Part shown: piece after piece, positions 16,401 to 44,252 of the stretch
How positions within the stretch are numbered: the stretch's first letter is position 1
Layout: each line of letters begins with the position of its first letter
DNA from: Clostridiales bacterium
GTDB lineage: Bacteria; Bacillota; Clostridia; Lachnospirales; Lachnospiraceae
Length of the DNA: 64,000 nt
Direction of reading: 5' to 3'
NCBI GenBank assembly: GCA_023663185.1
Contig: JAMPHY010000004.1
Location: forward strand, 124,001 to 188,000
Notes under the pieces: model-generated
The model's database searches: none
Seen by the model: the letters and a program-made list of their open reading frames with translations, nothing else
What the model was told of the DNA's origin: nothing
Program-made: the position numbers and the translations under genes

Positions 16401-18083
16401 ATGTTAATAAGCTTACATGTGAAAAATCTTGCGCTGATTGACGAAACGGAAGTATATTTCGGCAGCGGGCTCAACATACTAACAGGAGAGACGGGTGCGG
16501 GCAAGTCAATTATCATCGGTTCGGTGAATCTTGCACTCGGCGCAAAAGCCGATAAAGAAATGATTCGCACCGGGGAAGATTATGCCTTAGTGGAGCTTGT
16601 ATTTCAGGCGGAGAAAGAAGAACAGATTCGCAGGATAAGGCAGATGGAGCTGCCGATAGAAGACGACGGCACGATAATAATGCAAAGAAGGATTATGCCC
16701 GGCAAGTCAGTCTGCAAGGTCGGAGGCGAGACAGTCAGTGTAAAACAGGTTAAAGAACTAGCGGAAATATTGATTGATATTCATGGACAACATGAACATC
16801 AGTCGCTTTTGCGTGCAGATAAGCAGATAGAGATTTTGGATAATTATTCCGGCGAAGCCTTATATCCGCTTAAAAAACAGTTAAAAGAATGTTATACGCA
16901 GTATAAGGACGTGTTAAATCAGCTATCTGAGAGCAATATGGACGAAGAAACCAGAAAACGCGAGATTTCGCTTGCCGAGTTTGAATCAAAGGAGATAGAA
17001 GAAGCGGAACTTACGGACGGTGAAGATGTTAAGCTTGAACAATCGTACCAGAAATTTGTGCATGCGCAGAAAATTAAAGAAGCAATGACGATGGCGTATC
17101 AGCTAAGCGGCAATGACGACGGCGGGGCGTCTGATGCGGTCGGTAGAGCTATAAGGGAGATAAGAAGCGTCGCTTCATACGACGAAGTTTTAGCAGATTT
17201 TGAAAGACAGCTTCTTGATATTGACAGCCTGCTTAATGATTATAACAGGGCGGCGGCGGAGTATTTGTCCGATTTGGATTTTGATGCGGAGCAGTTTGAC
17301 CGCATAGAGAAAAGGCTTGATTTAATCAATCATTTAAAGTCAAAATATGGCAATTCAATCGCAGAAATCGCCGCATATCAGGCGAAGCTTCAGGAAAAAC
17401 TGGAAAAGTATCAGGATTATGACGCATACAGACAGAAGCTTATAAATGAAGAACATAAGCTGAAAGATGAACTTCTTAAGTTGTGTGCGAAGATATCCGA
17501 CATTCGTAAGAAAAATGCCGCAGAACTGTCCAAGTCATTGAAAGAAGCTCTTATTGACTTAAATTTTGCCAACGTGGAATTTGAAATAGGCGTACAGCCC
17601 ATAGAAGATAAAATCGGCGCAGATGGTTATGATAAGATAGAATTTATGATATCGACCAATACCGGCGAAGATTTAAGACCGCTTTCGCAGGTGGCAAGCG
17701 GCGGCGAACTCTCAAGAATCATGCTTGCGCTCAAGACTGTATTAGCGGATAAGGACGATATCGACGCGCTTATTTTTGACGAAATCGATACTGGGATAAG
17801 CGGAAAGACCGCATGGAAGGTTTCTGAAAAAATGGGTATTCTTGCCGCGAAACACCAGATTATATGTATCACACATCTGCCACAGATTGCAGCGATGGCG
17901 GACACGCATTTCCAGATTGAGAAATCCGTGGAAGAAGAGCGCACTAAGACAAAGATACATAAACTTAATGAGAACGAAAGCGTGGAAGAGCTTGCCAGAA
18001 TGCTCGGAGGCGCCTCAATTACAGAAAATGTGTTGAATAATGCCAAAGAAATGAAAGATTTGGCAAGAAAAACAAAACAATAA
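16401..18083 (+). CDS. recN: DNA repair protein RecN
   Basis: 560 residues, SMC-like ATPase of double-strand-break repair. Walker A GETGAGKS is at about residues 30-37, a long coiled coil covers about 150-380, and the C-terminal ATPase half has VASGGELSRIMLALK (signature) and LIFDEIDTGISG (Walker B). The ATG follows AAAAGGGG. The 117 bases between nadK and recN are AT-rich with short repeats of AATAAA/AATCAAT type and contain no gene. A hairpin terminator follows at 18118-18144. Confidence 0.95.
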   Translation: MLISLHVKNLALIDETEVYFGSGLNILTGETGAGKSIIIGSVNLALGAKADKEMIRTGEDYALVELVFQAEKEEQIRRIRQMELPIEDDGTIIMQRRIMPGKSVCKVGGETVSVKQVKELAEILIDIHGQHEHQSLLRADKQIEILDNYSGEALYPLKKQLKECYTQYKDVLNQLSESNMDEETRKREISLAEFESKEIEEAELTDGEDVKLEQSYQKFVHAQKIKEAMTMAYQLSGNDDGGASDAVGRAIREIRSVASYDEVLADFERQLLDIDSLLNDYNRAAAEYLSDLDFDAEQFDRIEKRLDLINHLKSKYGNSIAEIAAYQAKLQEKLEKYQDYDAYRQKLINEEHKLKDELLKLCAKISDIRKKNAAELSKSLKEALIDLNFANVEFEIGVQPIEDKIGADGYDKIEFMISTNTGEDLRPLSQVASGGELSRIMLALKTVLADKDDIDALIFDEIDTGISGKTAWKVSEKMGILAAKHQIICITHLPQIAAMADTHFQIEKSVEEERTKTKIHKLNENESVEELARMLGGASITENVLNNAKEMKDLARKTKQ

Positions 18084-18117: not shown

Positions 18118-18144
18118 AGGACATACTTATGTATGTTCTTTTTT
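18118..18144 (+). terminator. Rho-independent terminator after recN
   Basis: AGGACATAC (18118-18126) pairs with GTATGTTCT (18131-18139) around a TTAT loop, with one G-T wobble, and is followed by a T-run. It separates recN from spoIVB, in keeping with separate forespore control of spoIVB. Confidence 0.8.
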
Positions 18145-18170
18145 ATTATGGAAAGGAATGCGGTACAGAT

Positions 18171-19442
18171 ATGACTGATTATAAATTGAAAAACTATCGC
18201 AGATTTTTATATATACTATTCGTGACCGGATTATTGGCTCTGGCTGCGGCAGTGTACATGAATTATTGGAAAAAGGTGCCGTCCACGATTATGATTCGTG
18301 CCGGAGTTGAACAGGAGCTTGATTTTAAAGTTCCTGCTTCCGGTGAAATATATCAGCAGGAATCGGTAGAAAGCGTCTCGACGAGCGTAGAGAGCCTGCA
18401 TGTCAATTTCAGCAAGGGAGTGACGCTTAAAGCCAACCGAATAGATAACTATAAAATGAATTTGAAGCTGTTCGGAATACTTCCTTATAAAGATGTGGAT
18501 ATTCAGGTTATTCAGGATAAAACCCTGATACCGTCGGGCATTCCCATAGGCATATATGTAAAGACGCAGGGAGTTTTGGTCGTAGGCATAGGCGAGTTTA
18601 AAAATCCGGCGGGAGAGATAATCTCACCGGCAAAATATATTCTCCAGCCGGGCGACTATATTCTGGAAGTGAATGGAGAAAAAATAGAAAATAAGAAACA
18701 GTTTGTTTCAATTATAGAAAAATCGGCAGGAAATGAACTTATATTGACGCTTCTTAGAAACGAAGAGACTACGGAAGTGAAAATTTCACCGCAGAGCAAC
18801 CAGAACGACGAATGGAAGCTCGGTATCTGGGTAAGGGATAATGCGCAGGGTATCGGCACACTGACTTATGTAGATTACGATGATACATTCGGAGCGCTGG
18901 GGCATGGAATTAACGACGTGGATACTTCTACACTGATGCTGCTTGGCGAAGGAACCTTATATAAAACCGAAATCATAGGGATTACAAGAGGGGAGAACGG
19001 TTCGCCCGGAGAGCTGACCGGATATATAGAGTATAATAACAATAATATAATTGGTGAGATTACACAGAATACGGCGGAAGGAATTTTCGGGGTATGCAAG
19101 GACGAAGTCGTGCAGCAGACGGCGTATGAGGCGATTCCGATTGCCTTAAAGCAGGAAGTGCAGACAGGACCGGCACAGATTATATGTTCAGTCACCGGAG
19201 AACCCAAGCTTTATAATATTGAGATTACGGAGCTTCATCTGGAAAACGACAATGTTAATCGGGGAATGGTGCTAAAAATCACAGACAATGAGCTGCTTGC
19301 GCTTACAGGCGGTATTATTCAGGGCATGAGCGGCAGCCCCATCATACAGAACGGTAAGTTTGTAGGCGCGGTTACGCATGTTCTGGTAAACGACGCCGCC
19401 AGCGGCTACGGGATTTTTATTGAAAATATGCTGGTGCAGTAG
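18171..19442 (+). CDS. spoIVB: SpoIVB peptidase (stage IV sporulation protein B)
   Basis: 423 residues. An N-terminal membrane helix (about residues 9-30) is followed by a PDZ domain (about 115-205, around GDYILEVNGEKIE) and an S55 serine peptidase domain. Catalytic segments are visible: GHGINDVDT with His at about 244 and GMSGSPI with Ser at about 389. SpoIVB is secreted from the forespore and triggers pro-sigma-K processing. The frame runs up to 18129, but that start would lie inside the recN terminator; ATG 18171 has GAAAGGAA upstream. The gene is full length with a normal C-terminus, yet a second copy of its last 30 codons lies at 36360-36452. Confidence 0.95.
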   Translation: MTDYKLKNYRRFLYILFVTGLLALAAAVYMNYWKKVPSTIMIRAGVEQELDFKVPASGEIYQQESVESVSTSVESLHVNFSKGVTLKANRIDNYKMNLKLFGILPYKDVDIQVIQDKTLIPSGIPIGIYVKTQGVLVVGIGEFKNPAGEIISPAKYILQPGDYILEVNGEKIENKKQFVSIIEKSAGNELILTLLRNEETTEVKISPQSNQNDEWKLGIWVRDNAQGIGTLTYVDYDDTFGALGHGINDVDTSTLMLLGEGTLYKTEIIGITRGENGSPGELTGYIEYNNNNIIGEITQNTAEGIFGVCKDEVVQQTAYEAIPIALKQEVQTGPAQIICSVTGEPKLYNIEITELHLENDNVNRGMVLKITDNELLALTGGIIQGMSGSPIIQNGKFVGAVTHVLVNDAASGYGIFIENMLVQ

Positions 19443-29400: not shown

Positions 29401-32400
29401 CGTACATACCTACACCTTTATGGCGAAGGACGCCGTAGGAAATGATAAAACAGTGTCGGTAACGACGAAACTGGATACGACTAAGCCGGTATTTGGCGAA
29501 GCCTCTTTTGAAAATGGCTATAAGAACCTCTGGAACTGGATAATCCGCAAAGAGAGCCTTACGATTACCATTCCGATAACGGAAAAAGGCAGCGGTATCG
29601 GCGGTGCGGGTGCAATCGGCAGCGTGGAATATGAGCTGGTCGAGGACACAGACGGCGCGAGTGGCAGCGAATGGAAGACCGCTACAGTCTCCGGCAGTAC
29701 GACGAAAGGCTACGCGGCGAAGATTACTATCCCTGCGGACTTTAAGGGGCAGGTTGTAGTCAAAGCGACAGACAATGCGGGCAATGAGTCCGACGAAATG
29801 CACATCGGCTCGAATGCGGACGGCGACCTGCGCGGCGTAATCGTGGAAAAAGGCGCGCCGCAGATTAGCGTCAAGGCTGACCGAAACGTAAGCGACGCGA
29901 CATCGACCGTAACAGCGACGGACGCGGCGGCAGGCGCAGCAAACGGCGTTACATTAGATAACGACAGTTATTATAATTCCGCGCCCAGACTTTTTGTGAC
30001 AGTGACGGATACATGGGAGACGAAGAGCGGGGAAAGTGCGCTCACGGCTGGGCTTGCGTCAATCGAGTGGACGATTGATGGCAGCGGCGAACACAATCCA
30101 ATGAATCCAGTGCAGGCGAACTACCTCGGCACAGGCAGCTCCAGCACAGGCACAGGCAGCTCCGGCACAGGCACAGGCAGCTCCGACACAGGCACAGGCA
30201 GCTCCGACACAGGCGCAGGCAGCTCCGGCAAAGGCACAGACAGCTCCGGCACAGGCGCAGGCAGCTCCAGCACAGGCACAGGCAGCTCTGGCACAGGCGC
30301 AGACAGCTACCAGCCGCTTACCACGCACAGCTTTACCATCGCAGGACTCGAAGGACAGACAGGCGAGGTTAAAGTGACCGTTACCGCTACAGATAACGCG
30401 GGCAACGTGACAAAAAAGACCATAACGCTCCATATCAAAGACAAGATGGCGATACCGTCGCCCGTCATTGATTACGTAAATGAGAAATTGACCGGATTAG
30501 AGGTAGGTGCAGACTATATCATCAGCAGCGGGGCAGCGGATGACGCGCAGGGCGGCACGGCGGACACGGCGGACGCGAATGGCAGCATTGCCATAAAAGA
30601 GGAGTGGTTTGGCTCCGACGTAAAAGTCCGCAGGAAGACAACGGACGAAAATACCATACTGGACAGCGACGAAGTGCAGATTACGCTCAATGCGCGCCCG
30701 GACGCACCCGTTATCACGAAGACCGATGAGACCATCAAGAATAAGGGCGACGGTATGCTGCACCATCTTACCACGGCGATGGAATACCGCAGCAGCACGG
30801 ACGGCGGCAAGACATGGACGGAGTGGACGGCGGTTGCTGATAATAAAATAACAACCGTTACTAACATTGGCGGAGATGGCAAAAGCATGACAAGACTGCC
30901 CGCTTGCGAGATGGAAGTGCGCTTAAGGGCGGTGGCGAATACGACGGACAGCAACGACGGTGCGCCCTACGGACAGTACACTCCTGCGCAGATCGAGGAA
31001 GGGAAGCCACTGACCGTTACCTTTGACACGAACGGCGGCAGCAGCATAGAATCTGTTACGGGACTTGCATGGAATGATACCGTAAAACGCCCGAACGATC
31101 CGGTAAAAGACGGCTACGCCGTTGAAGGCTGGTATCGTGAGAACGCCTTAAGCACCAAATGGAATTTTGCGCAGGCAGACGCAGGAAACACAGCGGGAAC
31201 AGGAACCGCGGCGGATCTGCTCAACGATAAAAACGGCGTGGACGTGACCGCAGACGCGCCCGGCATTACCCTCTATGCGAAATGGGTGGACGACGAGGCT
31301 CCGTCCCTTGACGCGACGCTTGTCGCAGGGGATAGCAGGGCAGCGGTGGACGAAGACGGCTGGTATCAAAATCCCGCCATCGTACTGACCTATTCCGATA
31401 ACGAGGAAGTGACAAAGCTTTTTGTAAAAATAGACGGAGAGACAGACCGCGAAGCAGCCTATAAAGAGATTACGGACTATACTACTGCGGCGGAAAACGG
31501 CACGGACGCCGCAGGCAATAAGCGATTCCAGTATACTTATACGGAGCTTTCGGAAGGACAGCACACTTATACCTTCAAGGCGCAGGATGCGGCAGGCAAG
31601 GAGACAGAGACGACACTTACGGCAAAGCGCGACAGCACGGCGCTGGAGTTTGGCAATGCGTCCTATGAAGAGGGACATAAGAGCCTCTGGGACTGGATTA
31701 TCCGCAAAGAAAGCCTTATCATCACGATACCCATCACCGAGAACGGTAGCGGCGTGGAGAGCGTGGAATATACGCTGACTCCCGCCGGCGACACGGCAGG
31801 CGGCAACGGCAGTACAGAAGGCGGTACGGGCGGCGATACAGATAGTGGTACGGGCGGCAGTACAGAAGACGGTACGGGCGGCAGTACAGAAGACGGTACG
31901 GGCGGCAGTACAGATGATACAGGGAATAGCCTGAATATCATCACGGGAACCGCGAAGATAAGCGGCAGCCAGAGCGCAGGTTACACGGCGACCATCAGCA
32001 TTGAACCCGATTTCAAGGGTACAGTGAAGATCACAGGCAGCGATAAAGCCGGAAATGCGGCGGCTGAAAAGACCATCGGCACAGACGGCAGCGGTGCAGG
32101 CGGCGTAATCGTCGAGAACAACGCGCCGCAGATCACCATACTGGCGGACCGATATCCTTCGGAAAACGATGCGACACAGGCAGACGGCACACAGCTTCGC
32201 GACGAGAGGTACAACGGCGCGCCGGGGCTTGTGGTAACAGTCGCGGACGACGGCGCGGGGGACGGCAGTGTGACCACATCGGGCATTGCTTCCGGCATCG
32301 CAAAAGTGTCCTGGGAGGTCGCAGGCACAAGTGAAAAGGGCGAGAGGACCGGCACAGGTGAAGACGGGGCGGGAACGTCCTATAACGCCCAGATGGTGAG

Positions 32401-35400
32401 GGAGGACACCTTCACAATCCCGGCAACGGCGCTGCAGGCGGCGGAGAACCAGGGGAAGACTCGGATCACCGTGACCGTGACCGCTGCAGACCAGGCGGGC
32501 AACACCGCCGTAAAGATGGTGAACATCGACTTAAAGAGCAAAGAGAATACCCCGAATGCGAAGATCGGCTATGTGGCGGAGACGATCACAGGCTTAAAAG
32601 CAAATACGGCATATGTCATAAACGAAACGGGCGTCCTAAGCAGCGCAGGAGGCGCGGCGGAGATCACGGAAAGCTGGTTCGGTACGCAGGACAATACCAT
32701 CGTACTGTCCGGTGACGGGGAACGGACGATGGACAGCCTGCCGCAGAAACTGGATATCCCGGCGCGCCCGGCTGCGCCTTCTGTAACAGCGGGGAATGCA
32801 AGCTACCCCGGCGCAGCGGACGGAACGATTACAGTGACCGATACGGTCAATGGAGCGGCTTATGAGTTTTCGGCGGACGGCGGCGATACATGGAAAGTCG
32901 TGAGCGGCGCGCAGATAACAGGGCTGGCGGCTGGCACATACCAGATACGGCAGAAAGCGCTCGAAGAGAAGAATTTCAAGAGCCTTCCCGCAGAAGTGAG
33001 CGTGGAGGAGACGCCTGCCAAACCTTACGATATGCCGGCGGCAGAGATCGACTATGAAAAAGAACTGCTGACAGGCATTGCGGCGGGCGCGGTATATGAA
33101 ATCTCCTACGACGTCCCGGAGAATGACGGAAACGACAGTGAGGGCGGCGAAGGAGACGGCGGCGGTGAAGAGAACGGCGGAGACGACAGCGGAGACGGCG
33201 GTGAAGAGAACGGCGGAGATGATGATGAGGCTGATTATGAAGGAATCACCGAGACCTTTACTGCGGCGGAGGGCGGCACGCTCCCTGTGAAAGATGAGTG
33301 GCTTAAACAGAAGCTCCACATCATCAGGATGGGCAACAGCAGGGAATGGTGCGCCAGCGACACGCAGCAGCTCGATATTCCGGCAAGGCCCGCCGCGCCG
33401 GAGAACCTTACGGGTATAAGCATCACAAGGGAAAACGCGAACCCGGATAAACTGGCGCAGATAAAAGGTCTGACGGCTGGCACGACCTACGAAGTCTCCA
33501 CAGACGGCGGCAAGACTTGGCTGGCAGAGAAAAAGACGGCGGACGCAAGCGGCACAATCAGCGGGCTTGACGCGCCGCAGAGCTACACCGTGCGCGTCGC
33601 CGCAAGCAATGCGAAGAAAAACTTTGCCGGATATCCCAGCGAAACAGCCGTGGAGGTGGATAACTTTACCCTCGCCGTGACCTTTATGGAGGAGGATGAG
33701 ACGGCGGACGGCACAACAGATACAGACCGCTATAAAGTATATCAGACGGCGGACGTCTACTATGGGCGGCTGCTCGATACGGTCCCGGCTGTGCCGACAA
33801 AGAAGGCGGCGGACGGAAGCCTGCTGGTAGGCGAGTGGTGTAAAGATAAAGAAGGGAATACGCCCGTAGATTTTTACACGGAAAAAATAACAGAGGATAC
33901 GACCGTGTATGCGGCGGGCTATGCCGCAGGATATACCGTGACGCTTGCGGGCGGCACGGGCTACAGCCTGACCGCGCAGCGCGGCAGCGTAAGCCCGGTA
34001 AAGAGCGGCGGTAGCTTTACCTTTGTCTTTAAGCTGAGCGAAGGGTATGAGAAGACGGAAAACTTTGCCGTCAAAGTAAACGGCGTGGTGGTAACGCTTT
34101 CTGCGGACGGAACCTATACCATTGAAAACATTACGGCGGCTAAGACTGTGACCGTGGAGGGCGTGAAGAAGACAGCCGCCCCGACACCGCCGGGACCCGA
34201 TGAACCGGACAACCCGGATAACCCGGACAAGCCCGATAAGCCGGGCGGCGGCAGCGGCGATGAACCGGGCGGTAACAGCGGCGATGATTCGGGCGGTGAC
34301 GATGACACGCCGGGCGATAACCCCGGAAATAACCCGCCCACCGACAACATACCGCCTACGGACACCACATCGCCTACGGACACCACACCGCCTACGGACA
34401 ACACACCACCCGCCGATGATACATCGCCTGCGGACGAACGGGAACCGGGCGATGGCGGCAGGAAGCAGAATGATGGCGATGATAAAACGCTAGACGACGG
34501 CGGCGACAGGAAACTGGGCGATGACGACGATAAAACGCTGGACGACGGCAGCGGTAAGACACCGGATGGTGAAAATGATAAAGAGCCGGGCGTGACAGAA
34601 ACGGTCGTGCCTGCCATCATCGAGGACGGAAAGATCGTCATTCCGAGCGGCACACCGGGCGGATCATCAGAGGACGGCACAGGCGGACAGACGGAAGGCA
34701 TAGGCGGACAGACGGACGGCACAGACGGACAGACGGAAGGCACGGCGGGAGACTATGCCATTATGACGGATGCTGCAAACGGCGTTACGACGGCGCGAAC
34801 CATCTTCCAGATCCATGACGAAAACGGCAATCCCGCAGGCACAGTCATAGTAACTGTTGTCTGCAAAGAGCAGAAGTGGACGGCAGGCGTGAAGGACGTC
34901 ATCGCCGTGGCGAACGCAGTATTGACAAAAGAACAGATGCAGCTTGTACAGAGCGGCGAGACCATCGAGATCCGCATTGACGTGAAGGATATTTCGGGGA
35001 GCGTGCCGCAGGCAGACAAAGAGACTATCGAGAACTGCATCGAAGCGTACAAAGACGAGATTCCCGGTCTGGTACTCGGTATGTACATAGACATTTCGAT
35101 GTACATCAGGATCGGTGACGGCGACTGGAATGCCATCACAAAGGCGGGCGAACCGGTAGACGTCGTGGTTGGCATACCGGAAGAATTGCAGGCGGACGGC
35201 AGGGCGTACTACATCATCCGCGCCCATGAAGGAGCGTATACCCTTATGGAAGATGCGGACGCTGCGCAAGAGACCATCACCATCAGTACCGATCTGTTTT
35301 CCAGCTACGCGATCGCTTACCAGCAGACCGATGGAGCGGATACAGACGGTAATGGAAAGTGCAGACTTTGTCACATCTGTCCGACATTCCTCGGTATATG

Positions 35401-35503
35401 CTGCTTTATCTGGCTAGCAGTCATTATTGTAACGATTTTGATAATCTGGCTTGTCATTCGCCGGAGGCGCAAGGAGCAGGAAGAACCGGAACAACAGGCG
35501 TAA
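20495..35503 (+). CDS. Giant (5002-residue) multi-domain cell-surface protein
   Basis: A basic N-terminus and hydrophobic signal (about residues 16-44, ending ALAA) lead to an acidic repeat (about 127-170), a beta-sandwich region (about 322-469), several Ig-like modules, a Calx-beta-like domain (about 849-946), many more Ig-like repeats, and Listeria-Bacteroides (Flg_new/InlB B-type) repeats with the GWY...LYAKW pattern near residues 2010-2090, 2130-2180, 2745-2850 and 3506-3600. Pro/Asp/Thr-rich spacers (about 4565-4755) precede a final domain and a C-terminal membrane helix (about 4964-4989) with a basic tail. No LPXTG is seen; CRLCHIC sits before the helix. No enzyme domain was recognised. 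An adhesin or matrix protein is the likely role. ACAGGAGACC supports the ATG. GC-rich codon use differs from neighbouring genes. Confidence 0.85.
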   Translation: MDEQRAWLKSRRKKRLRITAVILSVCLLVTTYPDILTTISALAADIRSVEGTVTVTGFAKLDEETAMQEVETGTDISELDLPDTLKAYAEAADREDEKPAEDEEKPEEENPGADDEEKPEEENSGADDGTGEENPGADDGTGEENPGADDGTGEEEPGADDGTGEEEPGADDVSPLTIESGSFTLPQYQSENPTGSIAVQTLSTETIEIKNVTWQASPAYDSETEGVYVFTPILPEEELREKGILLSDDIKLPEITVEVYSAFVGDQELTPEQYAHMMAGIQDNPVLLTEEDILAQDPSLAPAGGKRRAAARAAAVIHPGTYVTTKDNENNAGTGVADDDIDQYIRQTDSRMPIEANIFIPKGELPTQSCYIAVRTYDVDWQGDDRFPNIAEYDKLFVNGERVGTLTGLDELWNTSYYKVPLSCLKEGKNTIRIEVWDCTDKSKFWDENPPLVKNENWMISIDWMQLVCDGGSRVGIEEFFISLTSAAAEGKQVAIQAETVIKSTNAGAKYDTEYSITDSKGYIVGSYQEANVSGGTHTFTITMPKNSKNGTYTVQGLLKSQSDGGILAADSMDFIFKDGVVQLGPKITHILSPDTLTNQNVTITPKVADAAGYTNISISLASQTATKNGTYNFTVNYKDNGVTKSIPYTVTVDNIDKVAPVITYEPITIREGQSLEEVEELFAAALSVTDDRKLAEEPFQYTVPADISAAPGTKSITVTATDFAGNTATKSCTITILPDPIKLTMGEPKAVAGSKDSYTLNAVLENTGGGTITETGFVWGVIENPTLDVNNGSAKTASVVKTKGGKLSANAAGIVYGVGYYARAYAKVTADGKTSVAYSDSKRFGSGIPAYGTFSVSGVSGSTFTITRTGGTDGKQTVYYRTVNGSAIGGTHFTHAAGSLTFADGETSKTVTVTEKGVTTAYGGRTTTSYANADRTYSLEIYRVEGGGGIDQSSRYQTRTMSKSSSYTIDRTIYTTEKSKIEVSATSGGHVKRIADTTGKQGGTQTNISFLTNRYKEKNYNTSANFSDYYTGANQKTYLNATADGWYYRYVLLAYEDMDGYEYAYFGTKALKDTHYDLDGGEKGALISGIAGQLWMCNFQLEKKGAAGTYNFPDTRTGGEEGSGMPYNSSGTPSNYNNKTYVKLGLNDTCYLYFGATGRDTDIWYIDGLTGYALVYDEKEPTCIGVAPMAGGAYLPGDPITVALVFDEIVDKTNSSLTNVAVNTNVGTLTYAGGADTNVLYFTGTVSSTASLSGSSALKVTGITNSGNIKDMCNLTGTASTFTSRNTNIEVDATKPAVTITAKTSGSLPRHQAQVTATGAASIQYVWTQDTTMPAYGWQDVKSGTTLTGNCGAAGKTETWYLHVKATASSGASTHEYKVFTFKQPAITGVSVRAESSANSADVSDVWKTSSKYIVVQYDGAQTNGTTLTFDGPQTSTQGITTASGTKYLQVTKNGTYTVTLTDSYGNVISKSVKVEKIDTTAPTATITEARSTEAGAASPVYHELTMTAQAADLAGASEPASGVKTVQYAFSTLANSSSVAGSAWTTLTDTDKLADGRYKLTYTATQTTQTKIYLHIKVTDNAGNATTARSADYTVIKEPEASAKPQITLTQTSPSASGQTNGDATLTWKLTNGGAGNCTVNAGGANLTDKGTGDSGTITVSKNGVYMVSVYDENGDSAQAALVVNCIDKEAPTLSALTVTQSGYAKTKSVSVSGITDNLTTLYDEKGVTGKGGSGVAKIEYQREGGSTWTTVNASGDTASFTVNKQGTYKVRLTDQVGNESKEYTIKVEGIDNTAPILTAQVNATPKTSGWYTDSTVPVTLTYEDKAGAEESASGVKSVQYAFTMDKNTTPANLTSLGSTAVSSGSAVCSLTSNGTYYLYCKVTDQAGNVTAGWMKADGSIGSESSAAVPIKKDSNKGSGTISGPAESQPASSGLNMSITVYYGPSGGELTATGQTDSIGTLAAHAGPSTKSETVSYTTKTIGTNYIYLSPISWGSRYYWSYYVRKVSFDSQGGSAVADQLVWTKQASTSTSTSVDCKLTKPNNPTRTGYTFGGWYTDAACTNEFDFEKQTQIRTDTTLYAKWTAITYEVDYVLKVPQPFTTTVTYSEADYEAPTDKTTYIYGDEMELPVPTLPTDVSGFVFDGWYTTADYSGARYTSVPKTAASDITYYGRFRDVEAPISYKLDVWNNGKPCYNTVDGVRWYNANTTRCALQFRENKGIEKYIVLWDGNVVELPEEEGILHTTSMAIGNKWLQGIYFARNLWEGYEIQTGTHTYTVQAWDAEGNMGEFTTTLHYDPDAPTIGDITYTVTPVIRYRTKDTYTDSSISSSKFVDNYETDSTEVRMFGKRPTIRIPVSDATSGLWKLTYTMTRLNSKGQGLTTETKEIDLTGQGSEGIVEIEMEKDWHGTITDIILYDKAGNQSAVTAIGEIMVDTTAPTISNIKLLGKEPEDRWYSESEFETNPYFDYKLGDNFSFASYRMLKNGKEIRNGSIWAASLGLHIAIGKDGKVGEEYLGENTFTWEATDPLGNVTTKSVTIKIRKDDGTVQEQTPQAVCDYPADAISHLVANAEYGITINGNSYPVTTDEQGRIPFETTFGSITSLCGTTIQIVKKGITVDGTPYTTDSEAQSLTINARPDANAVNSATVVAELLKEAGDAKITLTMSGSSDDTNRTWEYQTPGSTAWTTAPTDDSGNVTITNLPAGNITLRVKAQANSSDTVNDGFPHGVTGTQTVSEGAGTITVQYNLNDNDSTVKAQGKPEDTSLLTYQSTLTAPTAPTRTGYKFMGWYVSEDDYVPGGSTEQAWRFAGTANAQIVGEILGDDRDKYEDHCKMEEGVYVVTLYAGWREAVAPELTATLTDNSNGAGNSNDGAGGSGAGAGSSSGGTGNSSGGAGSSSGTTITDDGWHNSLAIDLNFSDNVGVTKLYVKKDSAAYVELSGDGIGDGASAGTTYKLTYPAMKEGASIEEGVHTYTFMAKDAVGNDKTVSVTTKLDTTKPVFGEASFENGYKNLWNWIIRKESLTITIPITEKGSGIGGAGAIGSVEYELVEDTDGASGSEWKTATVSGSTTKGYAAKITIPADFKGQVVVKATDNAGNESDEMHIGSNADGDLRGVIVEKGAPQISVKADRNVSDATSTVTATDAAAGAANGVTLDNDSYYNSAPRLFVTVTDTWETKSGESALTAGLASIEWTIDGSGEHNPMNPVQANYLGTGSSSTGTGSSGTGTGSSDTGTGSSDTGAGSSGKGTDSSGTGAGSSSTGTGSSGTGADSYQPLTTHSFTIAGLEGQTGEVKVTVTATDNAGNVTKKTITLHIKDKMAIPSPVIDYVNEKLTGLEVGADYIISSGAADDAQGGTADTADANGSIAIKEEWFGSDVKVRRKTTDENTILDSDEVQITLNARPDAPVITKTDETIKNKGDGMLHHLTTAMEYRSSTDGGKTWTEWTAVADNKITTVTNIGGDGKSMTRLPACEMEVRLRAVANTTDSNDGAPYGQYTPAQIEEGKPLTVTFDTNGGSSIESVTGLAWNDTVKRPNDPVKDGYAVEGWYRENALSTKWNFAQADAGNTAGTGTAADLLNDKNGVDVTADAPGITLYAKWVDDEAPSLDATLVAGDSRAAVDEDGWYQNPAIVLTYSDNEEVTKLFVKIDGETDREAAYKEITDYTTAAENGTDAAGNKRFQYTYTELSEGQHTYTFKAQDAAGKETETTLTAKRDSTALEFGNASYEEGHKSLWDWIIRKESLIITIPITENGSGVESVEYTLTPAGDTAGGNGSTEGGTGGDTDSGTGGSTEDGTGGSTEDGTGGSTDDTGNSLNIITGTAKISGSQSAGYTATISIEPDFKGTVKITGSDKAGNAAAEKTIGTDGSGAGGVIVENNAPQITILADRYPSENDATQADGTQLRDERYNGAPGLVVTVADDGAGDGSVTTSGIASGIAKVSWEVAGTSEKGERTGTGEDGAGTSYNAQMVREDTFTIPATALQAAENQGKTRITVTVTAADQAGNTAVKMVNIDLKSKENTPNAKIGYVAETITGLKANTAYVINETGVLSSAGGAAEITESWFGTQDNTIVLSGDGERTMDSLPQKLDIPARPAAPSVTAGNASYPGAADGTITVTDTVNGAAYEFSADGGDTWKVVSGAQITGLAAGTYQIRQKALEEKNFKSLPAEVSVEETPAKPYDMPAAEIDYEKELLTGIAAGAVYEISYDVPENDGNDSEGGEGDGGGEENGGDDSGDGGEENGGDDDEADYEGITETFTAAEGGTLPVKDEWLKQKLHIIRMGNSREWCASDTQQLDIPARPAAPENLTGISITRENANPDKLAQIKGLTAGTTYEVSTDGGKTWLAEKKTADASGTISGLDAPQSYTVRVAASNAKKNFAGYPSETAVEVDNFTLAVTFMEEDETADGTTDTDRYKVYQTADVYYGRLLDTVPAVPTKKAADGSLLVGEWCKDKEGNTPVDFYTEKITEDTTVYAAGYAAGYTVTLAGGTGYSLTAQRGSVSPVKSGGSFTFVFKLSEGYEKTENFAVKVNGVVVTLSADGTYTIENITAAKTVTVEGVKKTAAPTPPGPDEPDNPDNPDKPDKPGGGSGDEPGGNSGDDSGGDDDTPGDNPGNNPPTDNIPPTDTTSPTDTTPPTDNTPPADDTSPADEREPGDGGRKQNDGDDKTLDDGGDRKLGDDDDKTLDDGSGKTPDGENDKEPGVTETVVPAIIEDGKIVIPSGTPGGSSEDGTGGQTEGIGGQTDGTDGQTEGTAGDYAIMTDAANGVTTARTIFQIHDENGNPAGTVIVTVVCKEQKWTAGVKDVIAVANAVLTKEQMQLVQSGETIEIRIDVKDISGSVPQADKETIENCIEAYKDEIPGLVLGMYIDISMYIRIGDGDWNAITKAGEPVDVVVGIPEELQADGRAYYIIRAHEGAYTLMEDADAAQETITISTDLFSSYAIAYQQTDGADTDGNGKCRLCHICPTFLGICCFIWLAVIIVTILIIWLVIRRRRKEQEEPEQQA
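20873..21004 (+). repeat. 33-bp tandem repeats, four units (acidic, in-frame)
   Basis: Four units start at 20873, 20906, 20939 and 20972, each encoding an 11-residue DDGTGEENPGA-type unit. They occur in adjacent near-identical pairs. Degenerate related units lie just upstream. They form an acidic flexible stalk just after the signal peptide of the giant protein. Confidence 0.9.
27050..28070 (+). other. AT-rich patches inside the giant gene
   Basis: Within an otherwise GC-rich gene, roughly 27055-27300, 27425-27700 and 27825-28070 use many A/T-ending codons while the frame stays open. The short stretches between them return to the GC-rich style. This points to domain cassettes of different origin. 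Confidence 0.6.
30128..30295 (+). repeat. 21-bp tandem repeats, eight units (Gly/Ser/Thr, in-frame)
   Basis: Eight 21-bp units from 30128 encode seven-residue GTGSSxT-type blocks. They lie inside an Ig-like module of the giant protein and look like a flexible linker. Unit length divisible by three keeps the frame if copies are gained or lost. Confidence 0.9.
31808..31903 (+). repeat. 24-bp tandem repeats, four units (in-frame)
   Basis: Four 24-bp units start at 31808, 31832, 31856 and 31880 and encode GSTEDGTG-type blocks; a partial unit follows. Units 3 and 4 are identical. Another linker within the giant protein. Confidence 0.88.
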
Positions 35504-36350: not shown

Positions 36351-36359
36351 TTGAAGTGA

Positions 36360-36452
36360 AAGCTGGCGGACGCAGTCACCCATGTGCTGGTAAACGATTA
36401 CACAAAGGGGTATGGGATTTTTATTGAGGAGATGTTTTTACAAATGAATTGA
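36360..36452 (+). pseudogene. spoIVB: Detached spoIVB 3' tail (remnant)
   Basis: Thirty codons and a stop encode a near-copy of the SpoIVB C-terminus: AVTHVLVND followed by GYGIFIEEM, with 18 of 25 compared residues identical to the intact gene at 19368-19442. Two exact DNA blocks are shared, CTGGTAAACGA and GGGATTTTTATTGA. There is no start codon, ribosome site or catalytic domain in front. It looks like the original end of spoIVB left behind, or the end of a second lost copy. It lies about 17 kb from the intact gene, inside the island. Confidence 0.85.
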
Positions 36453-38672: not shown

Positions 38673-40601
38673 TCACGGAACCTCAAACGCCACGTCCAGC
38701 ACAAAATAACCGTTTTGGACACGATACTCCATATAGCCGTTTCTGCGCTCGGCGGCTTGCATGATATTGGAAAGACCATAGCCGTGCCCTTCTTCTTCCT
38801 TTATCGAAACAGGCAGACCGTTTGACACAGTCAGTTGCCCGTCAAAGCGGTTACTTACACGCAGTAAAAATAAATTCTGTTGAATACTCGCCTGTACTAT
38901 AATTTCTCTTTCTTTTTCAGGCATTGTTAAGGAGCCTTCCACGGCGTTTTCTAAAGCATTATTTAAGATTAAACATAGCTCCGTGGCGGGAAGTTCACAT
39001 TCTCCGATGCCAATATTGCAGATTAATTCAATATGCTGCGCGCTGCATTTTGCCGCATAATTTTGCAGTACCGCATTCATATATGGATTATTGCTGAAAA
39101 TTTTCACGTTCTGTTCCCTATGGTATTTAGTGACGCCGTCCAAGTATTTCTTTGCCTCTGCGGGCTTATTATCATCAAGCAGCGCAGCTAAGGTATTTAG
39201 GTGTCCGGATATGTCATGGCGTAAGGCGCGGAGCGCATTTTCATGGGAAAGCCTTGCTTCATAAAAATCCTTCTGCGATATAAGCTGTTTATCAAGCTGC
39301 CTTGCACGTTCTGTCTGCAAGGCTAAATCTGTACGCAGCCCTGCAATATGCCTTATAATCTGGTACAGGGCAAGGATTGATGAGAGTACGAATAATATCA
39401 CGGCACACCAGTAGAAAAACAGAGTAATGGCAGGATAACTCATTTCCCTGAAAACATTGGCAATCTGAGCGGCATAGTATCCTTGTCCGCATATAGATAT
39501 AAGATACAGGCTGGCAATCAGGCAGAGCGTGATACCAAGTCCGTATAATAACAGGATAAAGATACGGTTCTTTTGCCGCAAGGCTTCCCGAATGGCGAAA
39601 ACAAACAGCGCGGCAAGCGGGAAAAACAACGCCGCTCTTTTTTCCAAAAAAGGACTGTAAAAAGAAAGAGAGCTAAACAGATTCCCAATAGGAGAAATTA
39701 GTGAAACCAAAGTCGAGACTGCGAGAATACAGCCGAATATACGGCGGTCTTTACGGTTCTTCATCTGTAAAAGCAGCCAGATAAGAGGGAGCATAACTTC
39801 GATTACGGGGATAAATACGGCAAGCGGACTGTCCATAGCGTAGGCTATGGGAGAGATAAAGCTAAACTGTCGCAAATGGGAAAGCATCTGAATCAAGGAC
39901 GCCAGAATAAGCAACAGAGACGGATAATCATGGATTCCCTGAAAAAATGCAAAAATCCAGATACCGAAAAGTAAAATTGCGAGTATGCCGAATCCGGCGG
40001 CAGGCATCAGTTCCCTGCTTATGCCGGTTATCAGGGAGTCAGCTTCCGCCGCTGCTGAGGACAGACTGATGGCGGGCATGAAACCATACGCCGAATCTGT
40101 ATGCGCGGTGGCAATCGTGAGTTTTTTGCCAGCAAAATGCGCAGGCAGAGAGCAGCGTACCCATTCTCCCGGCAAGGAAGGCGTAGCGGTATAATTGTCC
40201 GGAAAAGTTATTCTGTCAATACGCATATCGTCTGTTGGGCAGTTGGTGTAGAGCAGCTCATCGTTTATAAATACTGCGCAGGGACGCAAAATATCTAACA
40301 TTAGAAAGGTAAATCCTGCATTTTCCTGATTTATAGTCAGGGTGCGCGAGAGATAAAAAACCTTATTTGTTTCCAGATTTATAATGTCCTCTGAGATAAG
40401 CTCTTTACGGCTGCCATCTTCTATCGTATAAATATCCCAGCCGTTAGAATCGGCAATTAACGGCGTAAGGTAAAGCGCTTCCGTTTTTGTCCGAGTAAAA
40501 GAAGTAAGCAGTCCCATAATCCAGACGGTGAGCAGGACGAACATAAGAAGCAGCGCACATTTTGATATATAATGTTTCTTTAAAATAATGTTTTTCTTCA
40601 T
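38673..40601 (-). CDS. Membrane sensor histidine kinase with GHKL ATPase domain, orphan
   Basis: 642 residues. A first membrane helix (about 14-34) precedes an extracellular beta-rich domain (about 40-190), then seven or eight membrane helices (about 195-405), a coiled coil, and a cytoplasmic kinase. The phospho-acceptor box ALRHDISGHL is near residue 458, the N-box LNNALENAVEGS near 550 and the G-box GHGYGLSN near 606. The layout resembles 7TMR-type receptors joined to an AgrC/DcuS-like GHKL kinase. No response regulator is adjacent, so its partner is unknown. A GGGG ribosome site is upstream of the ATG. Confidence 0.88.
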   Translation of the reverse strand: MKKNIILKKHYISKCALLLMFVLLTVWIMGLLTSFTRTKTEALYLTPLIADSNGWDIYTIEDGSRKELISEDIINLETNKVFYLSRTLTINQENAGFTFLMLDILRPCAVFINDELLYTNCPTDDMRIDRITFPDNYTATPSLPGEWVRCSLPAHFAGKKLTIATAHTDSAYGFMPAISLSSAAAEADSLITGISRELMPAAGFGILAILLFGIWIFAFFQGIHDYPSLLLILASLIQMLSHLRQFSFISPIAYAMDSPLAVFIPVIEVMLPLIWLLLQMKNRKDRRIFGCILAVSTLVSLISPIGNLFSSLSFYSPFLEKRAALFFPLAALFVFAIREALRQKNRIFILLLYGLGITLCLIASLYLISICGQGYYAAQIANVFREMSYPAITLFFYWCAVILFVLSSILALYQIIRHIAGLRTDLALQTERARQLDKQLISQKDFYEARLSHENALRALRHDISGHLNTLAALLDDNKPAEAKKYLDGVTKYHREQNVKIFSNNPYMNAVLQNYAAKCSAQHIELICNIGIGECELPATELCLILNNALENAVEGSLTMPEKEREIIVQASIQQNLFLLRVSNRFDGQLTVSNGLPVSIKEEEGHGYGLSNIMQAAERRNGYMEYRVQNGYFVLDVAFEVP

Positions 40602-40982
40602 AGATAATCCCCTTTTTCATATTGCAATATGAAGCATAAAAATTGTGTCCATTGTTCAGTCTGCTGAGACTGAGTTTATTATAGCATAGATATGCAAGAA
40701 TACTTTAATAAAATTATCTGAATGTATGAAATAAATATAAAAGGGGTATTGTATTTAGAATAAAAGTATGTTATTCTACGTTTAGCATATATTTTCTATA
40801 TACAAAACAGCATTAACGCTGCTTTGTGTTCTAAACGAATTCTTTTGCTGTAACGGCAATATAACTGGCGGCTGGCATATCGAGACGATATCAGCCACAG
40901 ATTCGGAAAATCCATGCTTACAACCAAACATAACAAAAAGCAGGGGTTTTCGAGACACTCCTGCGGAACACAGGAGGTAAAA
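40602..40982. other. Intergenic divergent region, no gene seen
   Basis: 381 bases between the kinase (minus) and an Rpn-type gene (plus). It is AT-rich in the half next to the kinase, with a small CAGTCT/AGACTG hairpin near 40660-40675 and a CAGC/GCTG hairpin near 40808-40822. Promoters in both directions are expected but none stands out. Confidence 0.5.
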
Positions 40983-41936
40983 TTGAACAAAGACATTGGC
41001 TGGAAGGGATACCTTGCGGATAACGATAGGTATGCCGACATTATTAACGGAGTCTGCTGCAAAGGACGGCAGATGGTAACAGGGGACGACCTGAAAGAAT
41101 TGGACACGCAGACCGGATTTCTACAAAAACTAAACCGAGGCATAAAGATACGCGATACCCTAAGAAAAGCAGCGTTTGGAGTGAACTTTGCGATTATAGG
41201 AATTGAAAATCAAGAGAACCTCGATTATTCCATGCCGCTAAGGAGTATGTCGTATGATACAGGCGAGTATGAGAAGCAGGCTGCAAAGATACGCAGGAAG
41301 AACAGAAAAAAGTTAAAAGACCTTAGAGGAAGCGAATACTTATACGGCTTCGGAAAGAAAGACCGCCTGAACCCTGTAATAACGCTTATTATTTATTCCG
41401 GGGAAGAGGAATGGAACGAACCTGAGTCATTGCATGAAATGATAGATTTTACGGACATACCGGAAAATATGATAAATATGGTTCAGGACTATAAGGTAAA
41501 TCTAATTGAAATCAGGAAACTAACGGACACAAGCATATTTAAAACAGATGTGAGGCAAGTGTTTGATTTCATACGGTGTTCAAAAGATAAGGCTGCGCTT
41601 AAGAACCTTGTGGAAGGTGACGAGGCGTATAAAAGCATGGAAGAAGACGCTTACGAGGTAGTGGCGCAGTATACCAATGCGACAGAGCTGATAGAAGCGA
41701 AAGAAGACTATTATGGAAAGGACGGTAAAGTGGATATGTGCAAAGCGCTTAAAGAACTTATTGAGGACGGCAGGGCAGAAGGCAGAGAAGAGGGTTTACG
41801 TGCGCTCGTATTCTCGCTGAGCCTACTGTTGCCGAGCATTGATGCGGTGCATCAGGCAATTATAAGGAACGAAGATTATAAGAATGTGTCAAAAGAACAA
41901 GTAATGAAATATTATAAGTTGAAAACCACATTTTAG
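40983..41936 (+). CDS. Rpn family PD-(D/E)XK nuclease / putative transposase
   Basis: 317 residues from a TTG at 40983, chosen because AGGAGG at 40972-40977 is ideally placed; the ATG at 40914 would add 23 residues with no ribosome site. Features of the Rpn/YhgA-like family include KGYLADNDRYADIINGV near the N-terminus, FGVNFAIIGIENQENLDYSMPLR (about residues 65-87), LNPVITLIIYSGEEEW (about 130-145) and VDMCKALKELIEDGRAEGREEG near the C-terminus. The acidic catalytic residues are less plain than in the gene at 36509. It is the third family member in the island and the last gene before spo0A. Confidence 0.8.
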   Translation: MNKDIGWKGYLADNDRYADIINGVCCKGRQMVTGDDLKELDTQTGFLQKLNRGIKIRDTLRKAAFGVNFAIIGIENQENLDYSMPLRSMSYDTGEYEKQAAKIRRKNRKKLKDLRGSEYLYGFGKKDRLNPVITLIIYSGEEEWNEPESLHEMIDFTDIPENMINMVQDYKVNLIEIRKLTDTSIFKTDVRQVFDFIRCSKDKAALKNLVEGDEAYKSMEEDAYEVVAQYTNATELIEAKEDYYGKDGKVDMCKALKELIEDGRAEGREEGLRALVFSLSLLLPSIDAVHQAIIRNEDYKNVSKEQVMKYYKLKTTF

Positions 41937-42136
41937 AATTGAATATATTAAAGAATAATGCAGGAAACTGAATAATAGTTGTACGATAGGCAGGAGAGAA
42001 ATCCCCGCGATGACTGAATATTCCAAAAATCCCCATAGTTGTTTATAATAATGGTAGCACGAAAATAGAAATTATTGGACAATATGTAATTTCTAAATCG
42101 TAATGCCGGAAAATTGTAATAAAATGGAGGTTTTCT

Positions 42137-42664
42137 ATGGAACAATTAAACTTAACTGTTACAAGAGACAATGAAAAAGTGCAGCAGATTCTTGATAACC
42201 TAATGAGTACAGATAAAGCGTTTCAGATTATGATAACGGTGCCGTCTAAAATACAAGAAGCCGCAGCCGTGGAAATAAAGGCTTCGGAAAATGTAAACGT
42301 CGTACATGATTTAGAGAGGGACGTCACTAATATGATACATGAAATCGGCGTGCCGGCACATATTAAAGGCTATCAATATCTGCGCGAGGCAATCATGATG
42401 TCCGTCGAGGACGTGGAAATGCTTGGTTCAATTACGAAAATTCTATATCCGACTATAGCGGCTAAATATCAGACGACGCCGAGCAGGGTGGAGCGCGCGA
42501 TACGGCATGCAATCGAGGTGGCGTGGTCGAGAGGGAGAATGGAGACGTTGGACGCATTGTTCGGTTATACCATTAATACCGGCAAAGGAAAACCCACAAA
42601 TTCTGAGTTTATCGCGCTCATTGCCGATAAAATCCGTCTGCAGTATCGTAATTATCATAATTAA
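42137..42664 (+). CDS. spo0A: Spo0A-type sporulation regulator lacking most of its receiver domain
   Basis: 175 residues instead of about 270. Residues 66-175 are a complete Spo0A effector domain, including [18 protein letters not shown] and the recognition helix [18 protein letters not shown], ending in [14 protein letters not shown]. Residues 1-34 ([13 protein letters not shown] and onward) fit strand 1, helix 1 and strand 2 of the receiver, but the usual acidic pair is changed to Arg-Asp, and everything from the phospho-acceptor strand to the end of the receiver is absent. The frame is uninterrupted, and a good ATGGAGGTTTTCT ribosome site precedes the ATG. Upstream DNA holds no receiver fragment. 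Truncated or partly deleted receivers are known in Bacillus to give active Spo0A, so constitutive activity is possible. Confidence 0.9.
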
Positions 42665-42806: not shown

Positions 42807-44252
42807 ATGAAGAAGATTCTATTTGTTGCGTCAGAAGGAGTTCCGTTTATTAAAACAGGGGGCTTGGCAGATGTTGTGGGTTCTCTGCCTAAATGTATTG
42901 ATAAAGAGTATTTTGATGTAAGAGTAATTCTTCCCAAATACACCTGTATGTCTCAGAAGATGAAAGATATGCTGCAATACAAGACACATTTTTATATGGA
43001 TTTCCATTGGAAAAACGAGTATGTCGGCATTCTCGAAGCTGAGGTTGACGGCGTTAAATATTATTTTATTGATAATGAGTCATTTTTCAACGGATTCAAG
43101 CCATATAGCGACAATGCTTTATTTGAAATAGAAAAATATGCTTATTTCTGTAAGGCAGCGTTGTCAATCTTGCCGGTAATTGATTTCAGACCTGACCTTA
43201 TCCATTGCCATGACTGGCAGACGGGACTTATTCCGGTTTATCTTAAGGAAAGATTTCAGGGCGGTGAATTTTACCGCGGCATAAAGACGGTTATGACAAT
43301 CCATAATCTGAAATTTCAAGGCAAGTGGAGCGTTAAGGAAGTCAGGGAGATTACAGGACTTCCGCAGTATTTCTTCTCACCCGATAAACTGGAAGCTTAT
43401 AAGGATGCCAATCTTTTAAAAGGCGGGCTGGTTTATGCGGACGCTATTACTACGGTAAGCGATACTTATGCGGAAGAAATCAAGACGGCGTTCTACGGCG
43501 AAGGACTAAACGGTCTATTATGTGCAAGGGCGCATGATTTACGCGGTATTGTCAACGGTATTGATTACGAGGAGTTTAATCCGGAGACGGATAAAAATAT
43601 TGCGTTTGCATATAATGCAGCGAATTTCCGCAAGGAGAAAATTAAGAATAAGCGTGCGCTGCAGGCTGAGCTCGGACTTAATCAGGACGACAAGACGATG
43701 ATGATAGGCATTGTTTCCAGACTGACCGGACAGAAGGGCTTTGATTTAATAGCATATGTTATGGACGAATTATGTCAGGATAATGTGCAGATTGTCGTGC
43801 TGGGAACCGGCGAGGAGCAGTATGAGAATATGTTCAGGCATTTTGACTGGAAATATCATGGAAAGGTGTCGGCAAACATTTACTACTCCGATGCGTTATC
43901 GCATAAAATATATGCAGCAAGCGATGCGTTCTTAATGCCTTCGTTATTTGAGCCCTGCGGCTTAAGTCAGCTTATGTCGCTTAGATACGGCACGATACCG
44001 ATTGTACGCGAGACGGGCGGACTTAAGGATACGGTAGAGCCTTATAATGAATATGAAAGCACGGGTACGGGCTTTAGCTTCACTAATTATAATGCTCATG
44101 AAATGTTATCCTCCATACGTTATGCTGAGCGCATTTATTATGATAAGAAAAGGGAATGGAACAAGATGGTGGACAGAGCAATGTCGGCAGATTTTTCATG
44201 GCAGGTGTCCGCTAAGAAATATCAGGAAATGTATGATTGGCTGATTGGCTGA
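42807..44252 (+). CDS. glgA: Glycogen synthase (ADP-glucose type)
   Basis: 481 residues, GT5 family. The ADP-glucose-binding motif KTGGLADVVG is at about residues 15-24, and FEPCGLSQL with RETGGLKDTV marks the C-terminal nucleotide-binding half. It extends alpha-1,4-glucan chains in the cytoplasm. GGAGGG at 42795-42800 supports the ATG at 42807; the in-frame ATG at 42792 does not have one. The gene is followed 28 bases later by a flippase-like gene. No other glycogen genes are next to it. Confidence 0.95.
   Translation: MKKILFVASEGVPFIKTGGLADVVGSLPKCIDKEYFDVRVILPKYTCMSQKMKDMLQYKTHFYMDFHWKNEYVGILEAEVDGVKYYFIDNESFFNGFKPYSDNALFEIEKYAYFCKAALSILPVIDFRPDLIHCHDWQTGLIPVYLKERFQGGEFYRGIKTVMTIHNLKFQGKWSVKEVREITGLPQYFFSPDKLEAYKDANLLKGGLVYADAITTVSDTYAEEIKTAFYGEGLNGLLCARAHDLRGIVNGIDYEEFNPETDKNIAFAYNAANFRKEKIKNKRALQAELGLNQDDKTMMIGIVSRLTGQKGFDLIAYVMDELCQDNVQIVVLGTGEEQYENMFRHFDWKYHGKVSANIYYSDALSHKIYAASDAFLMPSLFEPCGLSQLMSLRYGTIPIVRETGGLKDTVEPYNEYESTGTGFSFTNYNAHEMLSSIRYAERIYYDKKREWNKMVDRAMSADFSWQVSAKKYQEMYDWLIG

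Follow-up and report, generated by a model that had tools for sequence, protein, structure and literature searches.

The Spo0A protein encoded in the window, by which we mean the whole stretch of 64,000 nucleotides of Lachnospiraceae DNA analysed here, retains its DNA-binding domain and has lost the phosphorylatable receiver, and the same short form runs through a branch composed of the window's genus and its Acetatifactor and Kineothrix relatives. Phosphorylation of Spo0A is regarded as the gate through which endospore formation is entered; in known Spo0A the receiver keeps the DNA-binding domain in check and, once phosphorylated, dimerises. We posit, with a probability of roughly 0.55, that Spo0A in this receiver-less branch would be independent of phosphorylation and controlled mainly by its own transcription via half of an ancestral 0A operator. 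An earlier note, made from the DNA alone, had proposed that sporulation control here, if this was the sole Spo0A, was rewired away from the phosphorelay; a shift from phosphorylation of the conserved Asp is still the best reading, and the promoter has changed too. Genomes, contigs and loci are named where needed by our own labels (G, C and L).

A Spo0A by descent that is not a response regulator

The short gene, referred to as S1, has the following features.

42137..42664, + strand: spo0A-S1, encoding a 175-aa receiver-less Spo0A (ORF reading, Pfam, TIGR02875 and alignment)
42126..42130, + strand: ribosome-binding site GGAGG (direct sequence reading)
42137..42247, + strand: 37-codon receiver remnant, beta1-alpha1-beta2 by alignment (hhalign to receivers; conservation in 110 sequences)
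42323..42634, + strand: Spo0A_C DNA-binding domain (Pfam; comparison with 1FC3)

The open reading frame of S1 (42137-42664, forward strand) is clean and encodes 175 aa from an ATG start, and this start and the upstream GGAGG agree with the proper start and ribosome site of the earlier note. Pfam places Spo0A_C at residues 63–166 with 157.1 bits (cut-off 25) and detects no receiver domain in S1, and an 18-residue stretch of the recognition helix is identical to that of the solved domain 1FC3, in agreement with the view that the DNA-binding domain is intact. In an alignment with a full-length relative of 265 aa, residues 1–35 of S1 correspond to the start of the receiver and residue 58 onward to the DNA-binding domain, for a net loss of 90 residues that includes the Asp, Ser/Thr and Lys positions. 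The absence of a phosphorylatable receiver was thus correctly read from the DNA, as was the presence of a large deletion, although its size by alignment to this relative is 90 residues and not the approximately 95 first proposed.

A response regulator has a receiver with a phospho-acceptor Asp, which S1 lacks given its 90 missing residues; as an ortholog by descent, it has both the Spo0A_C domain and a score of 205.7 bits against the NCBIfam Spo0A equivalog model TIGR02875, just above the cut-off of 200. Judged by domain content and alignment, S1 is a Spo0A by descent and not a response regulator. In routine annotation it would probably pass as an ordinary Spo0A, with no comment.

The conserved receiver remnant

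To judge from profile comparison, the N-terminal remnant of S1 is derived from a receiver. When 111 distinct short N-termini are compared as a profile with that of 30 full-length receivers in hhalign, the match has 95% probability and a score of 42.4, the highest score among 60 column shuffles being 20.6, and it spans 31 ungapped columns, Met to Met. The remnant aligns as beta1-alpha1-beta2, which accords with the earlier description of a receiver cut to its first strand–helix–strand. Its most conserved part among 110 sequences is its end, F-[QRK]-I-[ML]-I-T-V-P, and the invariant positions are F29, I31, I33, T34, V35 and P36. In 36 sequences, 25 from same-genus genomes and the 11 nearest scan matches, which are near the genus by resemblance only, the remnant has a non-synonymous proportion of 0.14, the linker one of 0.46 and the DNA-binding domain one of 0.02, and 55 further relatives give 0.10, 0.47 and 0.04, where the linker figures come from same-length pairs only and synonymous sites are saturated near 0.75. 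Because these proportions are low in the remnant and high in the linker, we conclude that the remnant is kept by purifying selection and that the linker is drifting. In an AlphaFold model of S1 (50-row alignment), most of the DNA-binding domain has a confidence of 84–95, and the remnant blocks are modelled with a confidence of 51–66 as a single helix with no strands, which suggests that the remnant is unlike a folded receiver.

Given such strong conservation, most of all in this final motif, the remnant does something, as would be expected in a split system in which a receiver supplied in trans binds the remnant and restores phospho-control, or in which the remnant docks a kinase or another partner. 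We consider this arrangement improbable, as the deletion removed most of the receiver core and a search of the host genome with a full-length query found no Spo0A-grade receiver in trans among the matches listed, the top ones being 42% identical in a 373-aa frame and 34% identical in a 127-aa frame. A receiver in trans is accordingly rejected as a candidate, with the 42% match as the best of those listed.

A second Spo0A_C protein in the host genome

The host genome (3.83 Mb, 54 contigs, 94.8% complete) contains just two Spo0A_C matches, S1 and a second gene, referred to as S2.

Contig C1, about 113505-113882: S2, a 125-aa Spo0A that is almost purely a DNA-binding domain (Spo0A_C match)

No full-length Spo0A was found in this 94.8% complete genome beyond S1 and S2, and a full-length spo0A elsewhere in it is rejected, the searches having returned only these two genes and, among the matches listed, receivers of at most 42% identity. 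The possibility, raised in the earlier note, that S1 is the sole Spo0A therefore holds in so far as no full-length copy was found and fails with respect to S2, a second copy with the DNA-binding domain only. The recognition stretch of S2 differs from that of S1, reading TTDQKIERAIRNAIEVSWERG in many S2 proteins, and this alteration could fit a changed DNA site. Extra Spo0A_C matches in frames of approximately 110–150 aa also occur beside full-length Spo0A in many of 64 family genomes, and one locus (L225, G388:C22) has two tandem long-frame Spo0A genes with VNHD and AADQ at the usual ADDN place.

Gene neighborhood and the possibility of phage origin

The neighborhood of S1 in the window contains the following features.

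16401..18083, + strand: recN (tblastn hit of the Kineothrix protein, whose gene passes the recN model)
18129..19442, + strand: spoIVB, 437 aa (tblastn; the Kineothrix gene passes the SpoIVB model)
20495-35503: 5002-aa repeat-rich ORF between spoIVB and spo0A
36353..36434, + strand: second, incomplete 3' end of spoIVB, 71% to the intact gene
38673-40601: GHKL-domain kinase (Pfam)
40914-41936: Transposase_31 gene (Pfam)
42807..44252, + strand: glgA-like gene (named by eye), the conserved downstream neighbor of the short spo0A

The distance from spoIVB to spo0A in the window is approximately 22.7 kb, and the order recN, spoIVB, spo0A, which is the canonical gene order, is kept across the insertion. 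The stretch from spoIVB to the spo0A promoter (19443-42006, approximately 22.6 kb) also holds a MerR-like gene, identified by eye. In Kineothrix the order is argR-like, recN, spoIVB, short spo0A and glgA-like (argR and glgA by eye). Across short-form loci with enough DNA, spoIVB precedes the short spo0A in no more than 25 of 97, and in 98 of 101 the glgA-like gene is found at most 900 nt after it.

Gut phages carry Spo0A homologs that consist of the DNA-binding domain only, according to the accessible portion of PMC10294663, and 14 phage records match the window protein, as they might if a phage-type truncated Spo0A had been acquired and had replaced the native gene. Such an acquisition is highly improbable given that S1 stands behind spoIVB in Kineothrix and in the 25 of 97 loci above, and that the short state forms one clade on the SpoIVA tree described below, apart from genome G332; with the receiver remnant of S1 in register and its N-terminus without relatives in viral contigs, we reject a phage origin of S1. 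S2 has one relative in viral contigs, at 41%.

Distribution and ancestry of the short form

A longer Spo0A frame was found in none of 37 genomes of the window's genus. Thirty-five of these 37 genomes carry S1 in open frames of 175–208 aa and 35 carry S2 in frames of 126–169 aa; the two genomes lacking S1, of 86% and 68% completeness, yielded only S2. One same-genus MAG with the short form is labelled Butyrivibrio. A chance frameshift or an assembly deletion is excluded by the presence of the short gene, and of no longer one, in 35 of the 37, and the earlier judgement that the gene is not a random frameshift is upheld by these relatives.

A scan of genome contigs with the N-terminal alignment recovered at least 257 relatives. 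Of the 80 loci kept, 79 are readable, with open frames of 174–251 aa, and the other, L043, was dropped with no frame found. Records with the short form include Kineothrix alysoides KNHs209, the MAG Candidatus Acetatifactor stercoripullorum and the strains 526-35 and D16-50. No Spo0A frame exceeds 222 aa in any of the eight genomes behind scan loci (8/8), of which one is an already-counted same-genus genome and one is Kineothrix alysoides. Outside the window's genus and g30, the main copy is at least 263 aa in 58 of 64 family genomes, the six exceptions being G076, G130, G189, G293, G320 and G332. The loci in all of these counts are related by descent, and the counts are not independent.

On a tree of SpoIVA from 61 genomes, built by a quick method with no bootstrap and leaving out G293, the SpoIVA of which has a stop, two changes are enough to account for the short state, each of them required by starred branches (shuffled mean 18.1), and the main short clade comprises 21 rows with an SH-aLRT of 95. 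As read from this tree, the short form has one origin in the branch composed of the window's genus and its Acetatifactor and Kineothrix relatives. The loss of the receiver is, on this phylogenetic evidence, a branch-wide inherited state and not a strain-specific one.

The single-contig genome G332 (L201, G332:C1) has a different Spo0A truncation, in which more of the receiver is kept, the remainder is absent and a Tyr occupies the aligned phospho-acceptor position. An 0A box is still found upstream of this short gene, and the genome also encodes a distant 264-aa Spo0A-like paralog with 26% identity. Given that this truncation is separate and that the tree neighbors of G332, G380 and G385, have full-length Spo0A, the phospho-acceptor has been lost at least twice.

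The spo0A promoter

The promoter of S1 in the window is as follows.

42007..42049, + strand: conserved promoter composed of GCGATG, 31 nt and a -10-like TATAAT (promoter comparison)

The exact 0A box TGTCGAA is absent within 300 nt of S1 in the window. Within 300 nt upstream of the start, it is found in 21 of the 28 family members with a full-length gene (shuffled mean 1.2, maximum 4), in one of nine genomes of other families and in eight of 110 short genes, which is near chance (shuffled mean 4.4, maximum 8). By this count, the receiver-less branch has mostly lost the 0A box from its spo0A promoter. GCGATG located 37–38 nt before TATAAT is exact in 68 of 110 short genes, one of 28 full-length genes and none of the shuffles; with a GCGAYR-type element 36–39 nt before the -10 and at most one mismatch allowed, the counts are 106 of 111 short genes (shuffled mean 3.0, maximum 9) and 11 of 28 full-length genes (shuffled mean 1.2, maximum 5). 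Ten distinct full-length promoters have a distal 0A-type box 45–50 nt before the -10, and five of them have CGA near the inner position (0.6 expected) in a half-site window chosen after the sequences were seen; one example of such an inverted pair is TGTCGAA-TCC-TGCGATA. We interpret the GCGAYR element as probably what is left of an ancestral 0A pair, namely its inverted inner half, the outer half having been lost.

A GCGAYR-type element is present at like spacing in 21 of the 26 S2 promoters read and in 19 of 19 in the genus, which has 35 S2 genes (shuffled mean 0.13); this count uses a loosened -10, the stricter first pattern having given 6 of 14, and leaves out L365, in which the GCGATG element is followed by TAAGAT. 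Searched genome-wide in 11 genomes, GCGATG-N31/32-TATAAT has 18 matches, seven at S1 and 11 elsewhere, with eight for the reversed control, and this short pattern is therefore not private to spo0A. The fuller pattern GCGAYRNNTNRNNRTT-N21/22-TATNNT has exactly two matches in the host genome, the promoters of S1 and S2. Across 15 receiver-less genomes there are 28 matches to it (14 at S1, 11 at S2 and three elsewhere, with none in G438), and the controls gave one match in five full-length genomes and five for the reversed pattern over all 20 genomes; only its scarcity elsewhere is informative, as the pattern was built from spo0A promoters. Relatives of the promoter element were sought in viral contigs and none were found. 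In Kineothrix, two near-identical GCGATGGATTACACTTTAC...TATAAT sites (L345 and L346, C2:1870462 and 1870900) lie approximately 440 nt apart with no clear downstream gene, and these are possibly small RNAs.

Genomes G020 and G441, in which no S2 was detected, still have the promoter element at S1, and it is therefore unlikely that S2 is the sole binder; S1 or another factor is possible. The persistence of the element where S2 is not found would also be expected if a dedicated regulator unrelated to Spo0A bound it, as would its frequent extension past the half-site (CTTAC.GTT) and its only loose likeness to an 0A box. We put such a regulator, although a real possibility, at less than even odds, because the element occupies the position of the inner half of the inverted 0A-like pair seen in several full-length relatives and because the fuller pattern occurs almost only at spo0A genes. 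Among basal loci, L118 and L222 are without the GCGAYR element, L221 has only a one-mismatch version and L203 has it, and the promoter change may therefore postdate the loss of the receiver.

A proposed transcriptional control of Spo0A

Our preferred reading, a phosphorylation-independent Spo0A controlled mainly by its own transcription, would proceed as follows. The common ancestor of the window's genus and its Acetatifactor and Kineothrix relatives lost the phosphorylatable receiver. Without the restraint imposed by the receiver, S1 would act at a level set by the amount made, and transcription would be the main point of decision, with the conserved remnant perhaps contributing. The likeliest binders of the promoter element would be the Spo0A-type proteins S1 and/or S2, in which case they would form a small self-referring circuit. 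We are more cautious about a stronger version, which is tentative and on balance doubtful: that the unphosphorylatable Spo0A starts sporulation in a private S1–S2 circuit acting on the surviving half of an 0A operator almost only at its own two genes, dimerisation having been lost and the operator having correspondingly contracted from an inverted pair into a half-site.

Sporulation genes and their 0A sites

SpoIVA, a spore-coat protein, scores over the cut-off in 51 of 54 short-kind genomes, two of which have only S2 detected, and in six of six full-length genomes; one of the short-kind copies, that of G293, has a stop. Two of the three misses are 67–68% complete, and the third, G020 (2.5 Mb), is listed as 97% complete. 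SpoIIAB is over the cut-off in all 41 genomes searched, 35 of which are short-kind (in nine, pieces of one frame were joined). SpoIIE is matched in 39 of 41 genomes, the misses being G436 and G441, with only the full-length genome G239 over the cut-off. SpoIIE matches from the main short clade start at profile position 407–430 of 764 and thus cover the C-terminal part only, in ORFs of approximately 370–470 aa (L145-L170) compared with 468–766 aa in the six full-length genomes.

Sites resembling TGTCGAA with at most one mismatch occur before spoIIAA at the frequency expected by chance (15 versus 15.1 expected in 24 short genomes, three versus 4.3 in six full-length genomes), and exact 0A boxes before spoIIAA are likewise at chance in both kinds of genome, as is exact TGTCGAA before spoIIE. 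The variant TGTC[GA]AA is found before spoIIE in four of six full-length genomes (shuffled mean 0.7, maximum 3) and, without enrichment, in six of 23 short genomes (shuffled mean 2.1, maximum 6), and 0A control of spoIIE, too, may be gone from the short branch. It is therefore less likely that S1 drives sporulation via ordinary 0A boxes, or else the sites have changed too.

Since TGTC[GA]AA before spoIIE is enriched only in full-length genomes, this result weakens our preferred reading and strengthens an alternative in which sporulation has stopped or is waning and the short Spo0A is kept for stationary-phase, carbohydrate and surface genes. The shortened SpoIIE of the main short clade points in the same direction, as does SpoMAG, which, in the accessible part of PMC12536801, assigned 24 MAGs of Lachnospirales, Acetatifactor being one of the genera, to the non-sporulating class. 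The same part of that article cites the Kineothrix description for sporulation in certain strains, which argues against a relic, and the accessible text of the literature searched contained no direct sporulation phenotype for Kineothrix. In the part seen of the survey PMC11170972, human-gut Lachnospiraceae have a fairly complete sporulation gene set, some without spo0A. Given that SpoIVA is over the cut-off in nearly all short-kind genomes (51 of 54), that SpoIIAB is so in all those searched and that both the window and Kineothrix encode SpoIVB, we regard a relic or a new job as unlikely, although far from negligible.

Comparison with other Spo0A systems

S1 shares its recognition-helix stretch with canonical Spo0A (TIGR02875; 1FC3, 1LQ1) and passes the curated score, and it differs in having no phosphorylatable receiver and, in the window, no exact 0A box in its promoter. 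In receiver-deleted or sad67-type Bacillus subtilis Spo0A, made in the laboratory, loss of the receiver frees the DNA-binding domain; in contrast to the receiver-deleted laboratory form, S1 is natural, old and coupled to a promoter change. The phage-borne truncated spo0A of PMC10294663 likewise has a DNA-binding domain and no receiver, and in the accessible portion of that paper it is proposed not to need normal host signals; S1, in contrast, belongs to the host, retains a conserved receiver remnant and is branch-wide. Control by orphan kinases in Clostridia also departs from the Bacillus phosphorelay, but Spo0A is still phosphorylated there, as stated in the part seen of PMC11210211, whereas S1 is without the conserved Asp. 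In the accessible text of the literature searched, we found no description of a lineage-wide receiver-less host spo0A, and only the phage paper (PMC10294663) has such a form.

Implications

Loss of the receiver or of the phospho-acceptor arose at least twice in the family, and a spo0A gene recognised by current scoring models is no guide to how gut bacteria control their sporulation. A branch that has sporulation genes and no phospho-acceptor makes other ways of working the gate testable in cultured strains. If our preferred reading is true, these bacteria would provide a natural example of spore control without the usual phosphate signal.
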